From positions 1 to 44,804 of the forward strand of contig JAUWNJ010000026.1 in assembly GCA_030612725.1 (NCBI GenBank): 44,804 nt of DNA, in the 5' to 3' direction. Below the pieces are notes generated by a model. It had not been told where the DNA came from. It searched no databases and saw nothing but the letters and a program-made list of their open reading frames with translations. Below, piece by piece: positions 11,640 to 17,032 of the stretch. Numbering within the stretch: position 1 is the first letter of the stretch; the number at the start of each line of letters is the position of its first letter. The translations under genes were made by a program, and so were the position numbers. Source of the stretch: Planctomycetales bacterium (GTDB taxonomy: Bacteria; Planctomycetota; Phycisphaerae; SM23-33).

Positions 11640-12953
11640 TTATTCTTTCCTTATTTCCACTGCCCGTGCGTGTGCGGTGAGTCCTTCGCGTTTGGCGAAG
11701 GCGATTACGTCGTCGGCATCTTCTGCCAGGGCGGCAGCGTCGTAGCGGATGACGCTCGATGCCTTGAGGAAGTCGTTGCAGCTGAGAGGCCCGAAGAATC
11801 TCGCTGTCCCGCCGGTTGGCAGGACGTGCGACGGGCCTGCGTAGTAATCGCCCAGCGGCACAGGCGCAAACGCGCCCAGGAATATCGCACCGGCATGACG
11901 AATTTTCTTAAGGGTGGCATCATCGTCGGCTGTGATTATCTGCAAGTGCTCAGGCGCAAAATCGTTGGCGACATCGCAGGCCGTATTAATGTCCGGCACG
12001 ACTATGATGGCCGAGTAGTCCTCGATCGCCGCTTCTATCGCATCTTTCCGCTCCAGTTTAGGTAGTTGTTTTTCAATTTCCGCGGCCACGTCGCCGGCGA
12101 GTTTTTCCGACGTCGTTACCAGCACAGCCGAGCCTGGATTGTGCTCCGCCTGGGCGAGCATATCGGCGGCGAGCCAGTCGGGCGGGGCGGTCTCGTCGGC
12201 GATAATCAACACTTCGGAAGGCCCGGCGATGGAGTCGATACCCACCCGCCCGAATAACTGCCTCTTGGCCTCGGCGACGAATGCGTTTCCAGGCCCGACG
12301 ATTTTATCGGCTGGGGAAATCGTTTCGGTCCCTATAGCTAAGACTGCGATGGCCTGAGCGCCGCCGGTGCGATAGACCTCGGTTACACCCAGTTCGCCCG
12401 CTATTGCCAGGATTATCGGATTGACATCTCCGTCGCAGGTCGGCGGGCTGGCGATGGCGATTTCGCTCACGCCCGCCACCTGTGCCGGTACGACCGTCAT
12501 CAACACCGTCGAAGGATATATCGCCTTTCCGCCCGGAACGTACACGCCCACGCGATCAATCGGTGTATATCGTACAGACAGTTTTTGGCCTGCTCGCTTC
12601 AGCGACGCAGGGGCTTTGAGAAGGATGTGTTCCTGATATTCGCGGATGTTCGCCGCCGCCCGGCGCACCAGGGCGAGAAACTCCTCGTCGGCGGATGCGT
12701 GGGCCTGTTGAATCTGCTCCGTCGGGACACGCAGCGTTTCGGGAGTCAGTTCGGCCTTATCGAGTTTCTTCGTCCATTCGATGACGGCCTGGTCGCCGCG
12801 TGCCTGGACGTCGGCGATGATCTCGCGTACAGCCGCGGGTACATCGACCCGCTCTGCACCACCGGCCACGACGCCGTCGCGAAGTTTATCTCGAATGGCC
12901 AGAACGGCAGGGTCGCGCAAAGGCTTGTCCGCTTTGATTATCCGCAATTCCAT
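11640..12953 (-). CDS. hisD: Histidinol dehydrogenase
   Basis: NAD- and zinc-dependent enzyme that oxidises histidinol to histidine in the last two steps of the pathway. The 437-residue protein shows [10 protein letters not shown], the family signature around [20 protein letters not shown] and [14 protein letters not shown], covering the zinc and catalytic His regions. Length matches the family (about 430). It is the first gene of hisD-hisC-hisB. The Shine-Dalgarno is weak. Confidence 0.96.
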
Positions 12954-13077
12954 AACGGCACTACTTTACGTCCGGCGAGGTCAATCTGCAACAGGCCGTA
13001 TCGCGCCGCAGACAAAAGTTGCTTTCGGGGGTTGAAATTGATGTATCCAATCTGGTAGTATCCCCTATCCACCAGAC

Positions 13078-13150
13078 GCCCCCATCGTCTAGCGGCCTAG
13101 GACACCAGGTTCTCATCCTGGAGGCAGGGGTTCGATTCCCCTTGGGGGTA
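13078..13150 (+). tRNA. tRNA-Glu (anticodon CTC)
   Basis: The cloverleaf folds by eye. The acceptor GCCCCCA (13078-13084) pairs with TGGGGGT (13143-13149), the first pair being G-U. The anticodon stem CCAGG/CCTGG encloses loop TTCTCAT with anticodon CTC, and the T-arm AGGGG-TTCGATT-CCCCT follows. The discriminator is A and CCA is not encoded. A terminator follows at 13188. Its 3' half is repeated at 14878-14893, and an integrase remnant abuts it. Confidence 0.95.
13131..13146. other. Putative attachment site (tRNA side)
   Basis: TTCGATTCCCCTTGGG, the T-loop and 3' half of tRNA-Glu, matches 14878-14893 at 15 of 16 positions. tRNA 3' ends are the common attachment sites of tyrosine integrases, and an integrase tail lies immediately downstream. 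Confidence 0.55.
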
Positions 13151-13187
13151 AGTCCTCATGCTGCAAGAAGTTGCAACAATTCGCAAA

Positions 13188-13209
13188 GCCCCGCAATTCG
13201 CGGGGTTTT
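13188..13209 (+). terminator. Terminator after tRNA-Glu
   Basis: CCCCGC (13189-13194) pairs perfectly with GCGGGG (13200-13205) across a five-base loop and is followed by TTTTG. It lies 38 bases after the tRNA-Glu end. Confidence 0.65.
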
Positions 13210-13387
13210 GCGTTTAAGGTAGGTTCGGCTTGCAAGTCCTTGCAGCCCTCTGCGGCAGGGTACTGCGCCGGAAAGTGCGTCGCTTTTTGCGCCGCCCTGG
13301 AAAAGTGCTCATCCGTTACCTGCAAGTAGTGCTTCGCTGCAACGGGTTGAGAGTTACCAATCCATGTGCAAACGACGTGCAACGGGT

Positions 13388-14260
13388 TTACTGCCAGGCA
13401 AACAAGGACACATCGTCAGCGGCTTTGGACCAGTCTATCCGCAACGTTCTGCCGGCGCAGGGAATCTCGACAGTCCTGCCGGCGAGGAAGTCATTCTCTT
13501 CGTTATTGGTATGCGTTCGCATTGGTTCGGGCGCCATGGTCCTGAAGGCATCCATCTTTGTGGTCGCCGGCGTCAGGTCGTGTTCGCCGCCGGTGTAATA
13601 AGTTACCCGCACAAACCCGCCCAGCTCTTCAAGCCTCTCAGCAAGCGCTCGCGTATGCGTATCGCAAGGGACGTTGCTGTCGGCGGCGCCGTGTTCCAGA
13701 TACACCGGGCAGCGGATCAGTTCGGCGTGCTCCGTGACGTTTCGAACAGAAAGTTCACATGGCGCGAAGACTCTGCCGGCCGATTCGTGCTTGGCCGCGT
13801 CAATGTGCGTCATCGGCGAAGAACCATAAACGAACGCAAATGTTTGCGGGGCGAAGATGGCGCTCAGCAGCGCGATGTGTCCGCCCTGGCTGCCGCCGTA
13901 GTGGAAAAGCCGGCTCCTATTAAGCGACGGTTGACTGTCGAGTATGGCCCGCAAACCGTTAAGCACGTCAAAAACCTGGTAGAAACCGGCATCGTAAGGT
14001 CGGTACGCCCCTGCGCCCGTAGCCGCATCGAAATCATGTCCGCTTTGCCGATATTCCACCGAAATGCAGACGAGGCCAAACTCATCGACGGCATATTCCA
14101 TCTTGTCCTGCTGTTGGAATCGGTTGCCGCCCCAGCCGTGCGTAAACAGCATCGCACCGGTATGCGGGCCTATGTTATCCGGCTCTATCACCAAGGCGGT
14201 AATCGGCTTGCTGTAAGCTTCGGAATTCACACTGTTGAAGATAATTTCGCGGTTTTGCAT
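13388..14260 (-). CDS. Alpha/beta hydrolase (dienelactone hydrolase / S9-like)
   Basis: The 290-residue cytoplasmic hydrolase has an oxyanion region FTHGWGGN (39-46) and nucleophile Ser124 in GGSQGG. The acid is probably Asp194 (GAADSNVP) and the catalytic His is H227 (GGEHDL), the order of the alpha/beta hydrolase fold. No signal peptide is seen. The substrate is unknown; the GGSQGG elbow is typical of acetyl xylan esterase, dienelactone hydrolase and prolyl oligopeptidase relatives. It lies inside a segment bounded by tRNA-Glu and a copy of its 3' end, so it may be cargo of a decayed element. Repeated GCAGAC/GTCTGC half-sites lie upstream. Confidence 0.82.
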   Translation of the reverse strand: MQNREIIFNSVNSEAYSKPITALVIEPDNIGPHTGAMLFTHGWGGNRFQQQDKMEYAVDEFGLVCISVEYRQSGHDFDAATGAGAYRPYDAGFYQVFDVLNGLRAILDSQPSLNRSRLFHYGGSQGGHIALLSAIFAPQTFAFVYGSSPMTHIDAAKHESAGRVFAPCELSVRNVTEHAELIRCPVYLEHGAADSNVPCDTHTRALAERLEELGGFVRVTYYTGGEHDLTPATTKMDAFRTMAPEPMRTHTNNEENDFLAGRTVEIPCAGRTLRIDWSKAADDVSLFAWQ

Positions 14261-14323
14261 TGGTAGTCACTTCGGTTCAATCATCAGGCTCAGTGATAGA
14301 TAATATCTTTGGTATTATCGCTG

Positions 14324-14358
14324 CGATAGCAGACGGTCTGCGATAGCAGACGGTCTGC
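14324..14358. promoter_or_regulatory. Tandem palindrome, possible operator
   Basis: Two adjacent 17-bp units each contain the palindrome GCAGAC-G-GTCTGC (14329-14341 and 14346-14358). They sit 69-98 bases upstream of the hydrolase start. The inverse arrangement GTCTGC-C-GCAGAC occurs at 14474-14486. A regulator-binding array is possible, but a simple repeat is also possible. Confidence 0.4.
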
Positions 14359-14592
14359 GAGTCCAGGCGTTCGGTGTCGCCTATGGCGGCTGAGTTGGCG
14401 ACATGGCTGATCGGACTCTCGATGACAACCTGTTTTACCATTAACCACAATCCCCAACAAGAACAGACCATCCGTCTGCCGCAGACCAAACGACATGACG
14501 CACTCGGTTGCAACAAATCACAAGAGAATCTTACAGAATCTCGGCCAAGAATCAATCACGGGAGGTTCAGCGAACCTTGTGCTAACTGGCAG

Positions 14593-14769
14593 TCAGGGAT
14601 GAATATCCATGGAAGTGTATTCCTTCGTCGCGCCCCAAAGCCGCTCGTCCAGGCTTCGCAGCCATTCGACGCCGCCTTTTTCCTTGTAGGCGGCGAGTTT
14701 GGTCTTGTCTTCTGCGCTGAGGCTGGATAGCATCTGCATCAGTTCAGCGGGCCATTCGACTTTGCTCAT
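14593..14769 (-). CDS. Small hypothetical protein (58 aa)
   Basis: An ATG-initiated frame of 58 codons starts MSKVEWPAELMQMLSS and ends in MDIHP. It is acidic to neutral with likely amphipathic helices (SAEDKTKLAAYKEKGG). Codon choice resembles the neighbouring genes (GCC, AAG, GAA, CTG/CTC). No clear Shine-Dalgarno is seen and no family is recognised. It lies in the suspected decayed element, so it may be a gene fragment. Confidence 0.4.
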   Translation of the reverse strand: MSKVEWPAELMQMLSSLSAEDKTKLAAYKEKGGVEWLRSLDERLWGATKEYTSMDIHP

Positions 14770-14877
14770 GGCGGGCAGGTTTGACCCGAAATTGACGGAA
14801 AGTATGCCTGATTCCGCATCGCCTTATTTTGGCTGATTTTGTAAGTCCCTGGGGTTATCGGCAGTTACGTTTTTCTG

Positions 14878-14893
14878 TTCGAGTCCCCTTGGG
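14878..14893. other. Second copy of the tRNA-Glu 3' end (putative att)
   Basis: TTCGAGTCCCCTTGGG matches the tRNA-Glu T-loop and 3' half with one mismatch. The preceding bases do not form the 5' half of a T-stem, so only the 3' part of a tRNA is present, as expected at the far end of an integrated element. Confidence 0.5.
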
Positions 14894-14896
14894 TAA

Positions 14897-14943
14897 TTAG
14901 CAGTCGGCAATCAGCGGCCTCGCCGACTGCTAAACGCTTTTTT
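14897..14943 (+). terminator. Intrinsic terminator
   Basis: TTAGCAGTCGGC (14897-14908) pairs perfectly with GCCGACTGCTAA (14922-14933), followed by ACGC and six Ts. It ends the tRNA-fragment region and isolates it from dnaK. Confidence 0.7.
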
Positions 14944-15124: not shown

Positions 15125-17032
15125 ATGGCATCGAACAAGATAATCGGAATAGACCTCGGAACCACAAACAGCGTCGTAGCCCTTATGGAAGGCGGATCGG
15201 CGAAGGTTCTCATCAACCAGCAAGGCTCGCGCCTGACACCGTCGGTGGTCGGATTCACCGACAAGGGCGAACGCCTCGTCGGTCAGCCCGCCCGGCACCA
15301 GCAGATAACCAACCCAAAAAACACCGTCTTCTCAATCAAGCGGTTCATGGGGCGGCGCCATAACGAGGTCAGCAGCGAAGAAAAAACCGTTCCCTACAAA
15401 ATAGTCGGAAAGCCCGAAGAACTGGTGAAAGTCCACGTGCATGACAAGGATTACACCCCGCCGGAAATAAGCGCGATGACGCTTCAGGACCTCAAACGAA
15501 CGGCTGAAGACTACCTCGGCGAGAAGATCGAACGAGCGGTCATAACAGTCCCCGCCTACTTCAACGATTCACAGCGCCAAGCCACCAAGGACGCAGGCGA
15601 AATCGCAGGGCTGAAGGTCGAGCGAATCATCAACGAACCGACAGCGGCTGCACTTGCATACGGGATGGAAGGAAAAAAGAATGAAAAGGTGGCAGTGTTC
15701 GATTTCGGAGGCGGAACATTCGACATCTCCATTCTCGACATAGGCGACAACGTATTCGAGGTGCTCGCCACCCACGGCGACGGACACCTCGGCGGCGACG
15801 ACCTGGACGAAATTCTCATCAACTACGCTGCCGACGAGTTTAAAAAACTCGAAGGAATCGACCTGCGCGAAGACGCAATGGCGCTTCAGCGACTCAAAGA
15901 AGCAACCGAGAAGACAAAGTGCGAACTCTCGACGGCGATGGAATCCAACATCAACCTGCCATTCATCACCGCCACCGCCGCCGGGCCTAAGCACCTGACT
16001 ATGACGCTGACTCGCGCGAAATTCGAGCAACTCTGCGAGCCGGTCTTCGACCGTCTGATCGGACCCTGCAAGCAGGCCCTGTCGGACGCAAAACTCACCA
16101 CCGGCGACGTTGATGAGGTGCTGCTCGTCGGGGGATCGACGCGAATCCCGCGCGTCCGCGAAATTACCAAAAAGATTTTCGGTAAGGACCCGAATCAGTC
16201 TATTAATCCCGACGAAGCCGTTGCTATGGGAGCGGCAATACAGGGCGGAATCCTCGGCGGAGAGGTCGAAGAGCAGATGGTCCTGCTGGACGTAACGCCG
16301 CTGAGCCTGGGCGTCGAGACGCTCGGCGGAGTGATGACCAAACTCATCGAGCGGAACACGACTATCCCGACCGAAAAGAAGGAGATTTTCTCCACCGCAG
16401 CCGACAGCCAGACAGAGGTAACTATCCACGTTCTCCAGGGCGAACGAGAGTTCTCCGGCGACAACCGCACGCTAGGCCGGTTCAACCTGACCGGAATTCC
16501 ACCGGCTCCGCGAGGCGTCCCGCAGATCGAAGTGGCATTCAACATCGACGCCAACGGAATCATCAACGTATCGGCCAAGGACACCGCCACCGGTAAGGAG
16601 CAGTCCATAGAGATTAAGGGTTCGTCGGGTCTGAGCGACGACGAGGTCGAAAAGATGCGTAAAGACGCCGAAGGCCATGCCGAGGAGGACAAGAAACGCC
16701 GCGAAGTGGTCGATCTCAAGAACACCGGCGATTCGATGGCATACCAGGCTGAAAAAATGCTCAAGGACCAGGGCGAGAAGGTCTCCGGCGAGGACCGCAG
16801 TAATATCGAGTCGGGCATTTCGCAATTGCGCGAAGCCCTCAAGGGCGACGATGCGTCATCCATAAAACGCGCGATGGAAAACCTGGAAAAATCTTCGCAC
16901 AAGGTAGCCGAGGAAATGTACAAGACCGCCGGCACCGACGCTGCGCCGCAAGGCGAACCTGCCCCCGCGGAAGAAGAAAAGAAACCCGGCGACGACGACG
17001 TAATAGACGCCGAATACGACGTGAAAGAATAG
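15125..17032 (+). CDS. dnaK: Chaperone DnaK (Hsp70)
   Basis: ATP-dependent protein-folding chaperone. The 635-residue protein has the complete nucleotide-binding domain: [13 protein letters not shown] at 6-18, the phosphate-2 segment [11 protein letters not shown], and [10 protein letters not shown]. The linker is [14 protein letters not shown]. Then come a substrate-binding beta domain, the helical lid, and an acidic tail ending [13 protein letters not shown]. Length is normal. AAAGGAG lies before the ATG. No grpE or dnaJ flanks it, which is unusual for an operon but common for scattered planctomycete chaperone genes. Confidence 0.97.

Follow-up and report, generated by a model that had tools for sequence, protein, structure and literature searches.

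What fills the 1.75 kb between a tRNA-Glu gene and a second copy of its own 3' end in a planctomycete genome, and how did it come to be there? The window, by which we mean the whole stretch of 44,804 nucleotides analyzed here from a Planctomycetales bacterium, carries histidine-biosynthesis–like genes, tRNA-Glu(CTC), ~1.75 kb of intervening DNA, the copy of the tRNA 3' block, and a dnaK-like gene at 15125, the names of the protein genes being our reading of the translations. The tRNA gene (13078-13150, + strand) was recovered by ARAGORN and by Rfam (60.8 bits) and is intact. The direct repeat consists of GTTCGATTCCCCTTGGG within the tRNA gene (attL core, 13130-13146, + strand) and GTTCGAGTCCCCTTGGG at the far end (attR core, 14877-14893, + strand), which are 16/17 identical and in the same orientation; the nearest further match to the block anywhere in the window had three mismatches, and there was a single such match. 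The repeat starts in the T-loop, and the cores of related elements end at the same T-loop position. The limits of the element were placed at ~13130 and 14893. Just downstream of the attR core, the distal copy lacks two G of the acceptor stem (TTGGG-TA vs TTGGGGGTA).

An earlier note on this DNA had proposed a decayed integrative element that starts at an intact tRNA-Glu, has its repeated block starting in the T-loop, and ends with the distal copy right before a terminator. The repeat bears out these points and the boundary held, and the terminator-like hairpin (14897-14940, + strand), an inverted repeat with similar repeats at the same place in the congener G003, belongs to the chromosomal flank, where it is probably the former terminator of tRNA-Glu. 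Two contig ends of G003 (G003:C165, L103; G003:C190, L102) carry long CAGTCAGC/CAATCAGC-like repeat runs, which flank tRNA-Glu and precede dnaK and at which the assembly is broken; the window hairpin is a milder form of these repeats.

An empty site was found in the congener G002, in which tRNA-Glu is directly joined to the dnaK-upstream flank. This genome aligned with window positions 12953-13150 at 91% identity and from 14949 onward at 88%, with ~41 bp between the two, and a predicted joined site agreed with it on both flanks. In G003 the tRNA gene is present without an integrase and the contig breaks in the repeat. One T-loop position varies, being G in both G002 and G003 (TTCGAGTCC) and in the distal copy and T in the window tRNA-Glu. 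Since the G is shared by the congeners and the distal copy, the latter is the displaced host 3' end, and the 3' part of tRNA-Glu, starting with the T-loop, is most likely element DNA; the T could instead be a later mutation. The empty site and the host G in the distal copy together indicate that the element is real, was acquired, and has been internally deleted. In related genomes, the homologous elements have ends of the same kinds.

The earlier note had suggested that close relatives be searched for an empty tRNA-Glu site and for full-length elements with the same integrase tail. The former was supplied by G002, where the chromosomal flank directly follows the tRNA, and the latter by a 5.2-kb element in G078 and a candidate 56.8-kb element in G042, both at tRNA-Glu. 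As evidence against its proposal, the note had named relatives that keep the hydrolase of this segment beside tRNA-Glu without an integrase, together with a distal block that is no boundary; the congeners lack the hydrolase and the block is a true boundary. Measured against the features expected of a tRNA-integrated genomic island, the locus has a tRNA gene with a 3' fragment in the same orientation and an empty site in a close relative, and has no functional integrase inside. Only the C-terminal ~90 integrase codons are left, and the window element is thus a remnant.

These last codons (13113-13385, − strand) comprise the Tyr box, a linker, and codons antisense to the tRNA. They contain an 89-aa ORF (13113-13382), whose translation includes ...HVVCTWIGNSQPVAAKHYLQVTDEHF..., matching a tyrosine integrase around its Tyr box, and which passes antisense through the tRNA-Glu 3' half to a stop codon inside the tRNA gene. 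Homology to integrases starts immediately past the stop codon of the alpha/beta hydrolase, and the full-length copy in the same genome matches 13257-13391. The catalytic Tyr box KHYLQVT is kept, and the fragment is dead because the upstream Arg/Lys/Arg residues are gone. Relatives of the fragment, including a 429-aa protein of the same genome, are widespread in Planctomycetota, being encoded in 159 genome stretches, in agreement with the earlier reading of this ORF as the C-terminal fragment of a tyrosine integrase pointing at the tRNA.

Of the integrase ORFs at the 80 best loci of this family, 59 have their stop within a tRNA gene (17 Glu, 13 Leu, 10 Val, and ten other kinds) and 5 terminate a short way ahead of one; 13 lack a tRNA in the vicinity, and 3 are cut off by the contig end, so that not every member spans the core. 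The core is on the C-terminal side of the catalytic Tyr. In three family members Pfam recognized the PF00589 (Phage_integrase) catalytic domain together with SAM-like domains, and the SSV-type domain PF16795 (Phage_integr_3) was not among their matches. The genome of the window itself carries a complete 7.4-kb element in tRNA-Val(TAC) (G000:C61:81359-88877, L100), which encodes the 429-aa split integrase, a phage O-like replication protein, and a DnaB helicase; no structural genes were seen in this satellite-like element. It has GGGCGCGACAGGACTCGAAC at both ends, and at the far core the integrase frame continues as ...GATGLEQSAKTPVKSPIPKTGGALSGALSGDSAPNLTELTAMLSGMSAADKKILAALLTDKGKDGQE. The same was found at the far core of the G042 candidate element at tRNA-Glu (G042:C21:22182-79040, L104-L106), where the frame continues as PPRGLEPQDVTDCKPNKLQNPEKSSGAESGAF...IVEAWPKLPEAVKAGILAMVRAV. 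That element also contains an HSP70 homologue, radical SAM and ABC transporter genes, an nSTAND NTPase, an SMC-like protein, and a second, different integrase, and may be composite.

The integrase genes of these elements are therefore split, with a continuation of the frame left at the opposite end. The alternative is an ordinary tRNA island, in which attP lies outside the integrase gene and coincidence accounts both for the integrase reading into the tRNA and for the frame left open at attR; integrase ORFs beside tRNA genes can enter them by chance, and the tail in the window contains a stop. The flanks of 60 further integrases were scanned for a repeat of the respective tRNA 3' end. Far cores were detected in a minority of elements (14 besides that of the window), because contigs end or 18 kb were fetched. 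In all 14, which target tRNA-Leu, -Val, -Glu, -Arg, and -Phe and tmRNA, the integrase frame ran on past the far core without a stop for 56-93 codons, encoding related tails, while the other two frames reached 56 codons in 5/28 cases (Fisher test, ~2e-7). Two members in tmRNA genes, L236 and L240 of G065, have an in-frame tail at the far core. The severed tails are about 60-90 residues long, and in 21 of 21 cases a tail scored higher than its 500 shuffles against a profile built without it. The core is crossed in a frame that varies with the target (GxEP for tRNA-Glu and -Val, others for tRNA-Arg and tmRNA), and the tail is always in the integrase frame. This independence from the core frame favors a coding tail over a by-product of the tRNA sequence. 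Similarity of the tails as DNA arm sites only was also considered and was rejected, as the tails still match as proteins where their cores are read in different frames.

The window has such a tail as well. Read across its two ends, the integrase frame gives LPPRGIE at attL and LEQKNVTADNPRDLQNQPK*GDAESGI at attR. The proximal part of the tail, EQKNVTADNPRDLQNQPK*GDAESG... (14770-14880, − strand), contains one in-frame TAA (14824-14826) and is homologous to the tails of G042, G051, and the viral contig L253. Past this stop, in the same frame, lies a 58-aa ORF (14593-14769, − strand), whose best tail match was the tRNA-Val element of its own genome (43% identity). Against a profile built without it, the whole window tail scored 20.6 bits, compared to 8.2 for the best of 1000 shuffles. 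These scores and the match within the genome identify the 58-aa ORF as the distal part of the displaced integrase tail, now decaying. An excess of synonymous changes, which would have spoken for selection on the tail, was not seen when codon positions were compared among three tails (window, G042, and G051); relaxed constraint is expected of a tail that lies outside the integrase after integration. Pfam had no match for the 89-aa fragment or for the tails, and the one tail tested against PHROGs was unrecognized, so that the homology of both rests on relatives.

The earlier note had taken the hydrolase, a palindromic array, and the 58-aa ORF for retained cargo, which is still plausible for the hydrolase and is wrong for the ORF. 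The hydrolase (13388-14260, − strand) is complete and Peptidase_S9/AXE1-like by Pfam, with full-length homologues at 57–58% identity, and is plausibly cargo or a captured gene that may have arrived later than the element. It is absent from the congeners and was found in 3 of the 37 genomes searched, this genome counted. The array comprises two tandem 17-nt copies of CTGCGATAGCAGACGGT (14321-14354), detected by a repeat search, which may be the upstream region of the hydrolase. A 47-bp stretch at 14525-14571 has ~81% matches at G000:C5:33088-33134 and G002:C83:1316-1360.

The segment could thus also be the product of two events, with att ends left by an old element and the hydrolase and its upstream repeats inserted later and independently, in which case the split of the integrase would be unchanged. 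In G019, G044, and G053, the neighbors of the hydrolase homologues are genes resembling those of sugar catabolism and not integrases, and the short matches of 14525-14571 elsewhere in the same genome and in G002 point the same way. However, no target duplication, transposase, or inverted repeats were seen around the hydrolase, and capture of cargo before the deletion explains its presence equally well. We consider such a later insertion somewhat unlikely.

It is improbable that the 1.75-kb unit is instead a live minimal non-autonomous element, moved in trans by a related integrase in the manner of cis-mobilizable elements. Both T-loop cores are nearly intact, and related integrases in other genomes use tRNA-Glu(CTC), but a single copy is known, its distal core lacks two G, its tail is interrupted by a stop, and in the same genome the one complete family member that was detected targets tRNA-Val.

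The integrase gene also exists in an unsplit state. A scan of viral contigs with the integrase alignment gave 79 loci, while a single-sequence scan of the same contigs gave one distant match only; the collection labelled phages yielded a distant cyanophage integrase only and that labelled plasmids yielded no match. One continuous ORF comprising the catalytic part, the core, and the tail was found in L253, L260/L261, L267/L268, and L272, and weakly in L264. An ORF that crosses attP in the free form, as in the Mx8 type, was seen in L253, L261, L268, and L272. The core of L253 is clearly tRNA-Glu–like and that of L261 is not clearly tRNA-like. L253 reads LPPRGVEQGDIRGYENRYLQNPPKSDGAESGA across CCCCCAAGGGGAGTCGAAC, the tRNA-Glu 3' end, and is the counterpart of the window element. 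Genomes hold the joined form too: a contig of G086 (C21, L231/L209) carries a tandem array at tRNA-Glu(TTC), in which the upstream integrase is one ORF through the middle core into the tail, and an integrase fused to its tail is likewise present on L085, a genome contig of small size. With whole genes in phage contigs, in-frame tails in 14/14 complete elements, and tails homologous across targets, the ordinary island with attP outside the integrase is highly improbable.

An AlphaFold model of the L253 protein, built with 22 sequences, had a mean pLDDT of 79. The N-terminal and catalytic parts were confident, a disordered stretch at residues 373-461 holds the core, and a two-helix hairpin followed at 458-492 (pLDDT about 60-85). 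A disordered linker would tolerate extra information on the opposite strand, namely the tRNA 3' half and often its terminator. A terminator-like hairpin for the tRNA was found in 28 of 71 family attL loci, compared to 1.25 expected from shuffles. The hairpin for tRNA-Glu in the window (13189-13213, + strand), overprinted on the integrase linker, is one of this kind and is near-identical in L021.

Taken together, the window segment is very probably the internally deleted remnant of a tRNA-Glu element whose planctomycete tyrosine integrase gene encloses attP within its coding region; evident at the level of sequence are the unoccupied site in the congener, the att cores, the divided integrase genes of relatives, and their undivided counterparts in phage contigs. 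In the circular form, the integrase is one gene with N-terminal DNA-binding and catalytic domains, a disordered linker, and a C-terminal two-helix tail, and the opposite strand of the linker DNA carries the tRNA 3' half, often with its terminator. A crossover in the T-loop rebuilds the tRNA with element DNA, places the integrase stop inside the tRNA, and strands the tail at attR. In the window, a later internal deletion took out the bulk of the element and spared the last ~90 integrase codons at attL, the tail with its one stop at attR, and the hydrolase between them.

By analogy with Mx8, the shortened integrase may behave differently from the full-length one, for example as a switch of directionality or toward irreversible integration. 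The tail may aid integration or set its direction, and its loss may stabilize the integrated state. A broader proposal, to which we give slightly less than an even chance, is that these integrases form a phylum-wide bacterial self-splitting clade in which loss of the two-helix domain is a one-way switch: the full integrase would integrate, and for excision the short one would need help, or a tandem array in which a full-length gene is restored. The split could be a simple way for an element to sense its own integrated state. For annotation, an orphan WPxL-type tail beside a tRNA fragment locates attR, also in decayed elements.

A decayed tRNA island is by itself ordinary. Like Islander-type tRNA islands, the window element restores the tRNA with its own DNA and leaves the displaced 3' fragment at the far end, and small deletions in that fragment, as seen here, are also known in other tRNA islands (PMC4383910). 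Unlike those islands, its integrase spans attP, and the remnant, at 1.75 kb, is too short for the 2-kb length filter applied in that survey. The part that we did not find described for the phylum is the integrase architecture at the family level: the literature that we searched, with incomplete coverage, held no description of attP-spanning integrases in Planctomycetes.

Two known systems come close. In the Myxococcus phage Mx8, attP lies inside the coding sequence of the integrase IntP, and integration gives the gene a new 3' end without inactivating the enzyme (PMC6070905; PMC4383910, citing Tojo et al. 1996). The specificity of the enzyme changes along with the new 3' end (PMC6070905), and the Islander survey names the Mx8 and SSV integrases as extending across attP (PMC4383910). 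Like IntP, the planctomycete integrase contains its own attP, the likeness being one of architecture. Unlike IntP, it belongs to a many-membered family that uses the T-loops of many kinds of tRNA and tmRNA and loses a recurring C-terminal tail on integration. The suicidal integrases of archaea likewise contain the target site in their own gene, where it usually matches a tRNA gene, and are split by integration (PMC8371274); they have been proposed to serve as their own directionality factor, and a 2021 review regarded self-disrupting recombinases as exclusively archaeal (PMC8371274). The planctomycete integrases share with the SSV type the position of the target site and the split. However, the archaeal split parts the N-terminal portion from the catalytic domain, whereas the planctomycete split leaves the catalytic domain whole and removes the C-terminal tail, and the family is unlike the archaeal type because its catalytic residues stay together. 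Gene-breaking integrases are thus not confined to archaea and one myxophage, as a family of Planctomycetota uses this architecture on many tRNA genes and on tmRNA.
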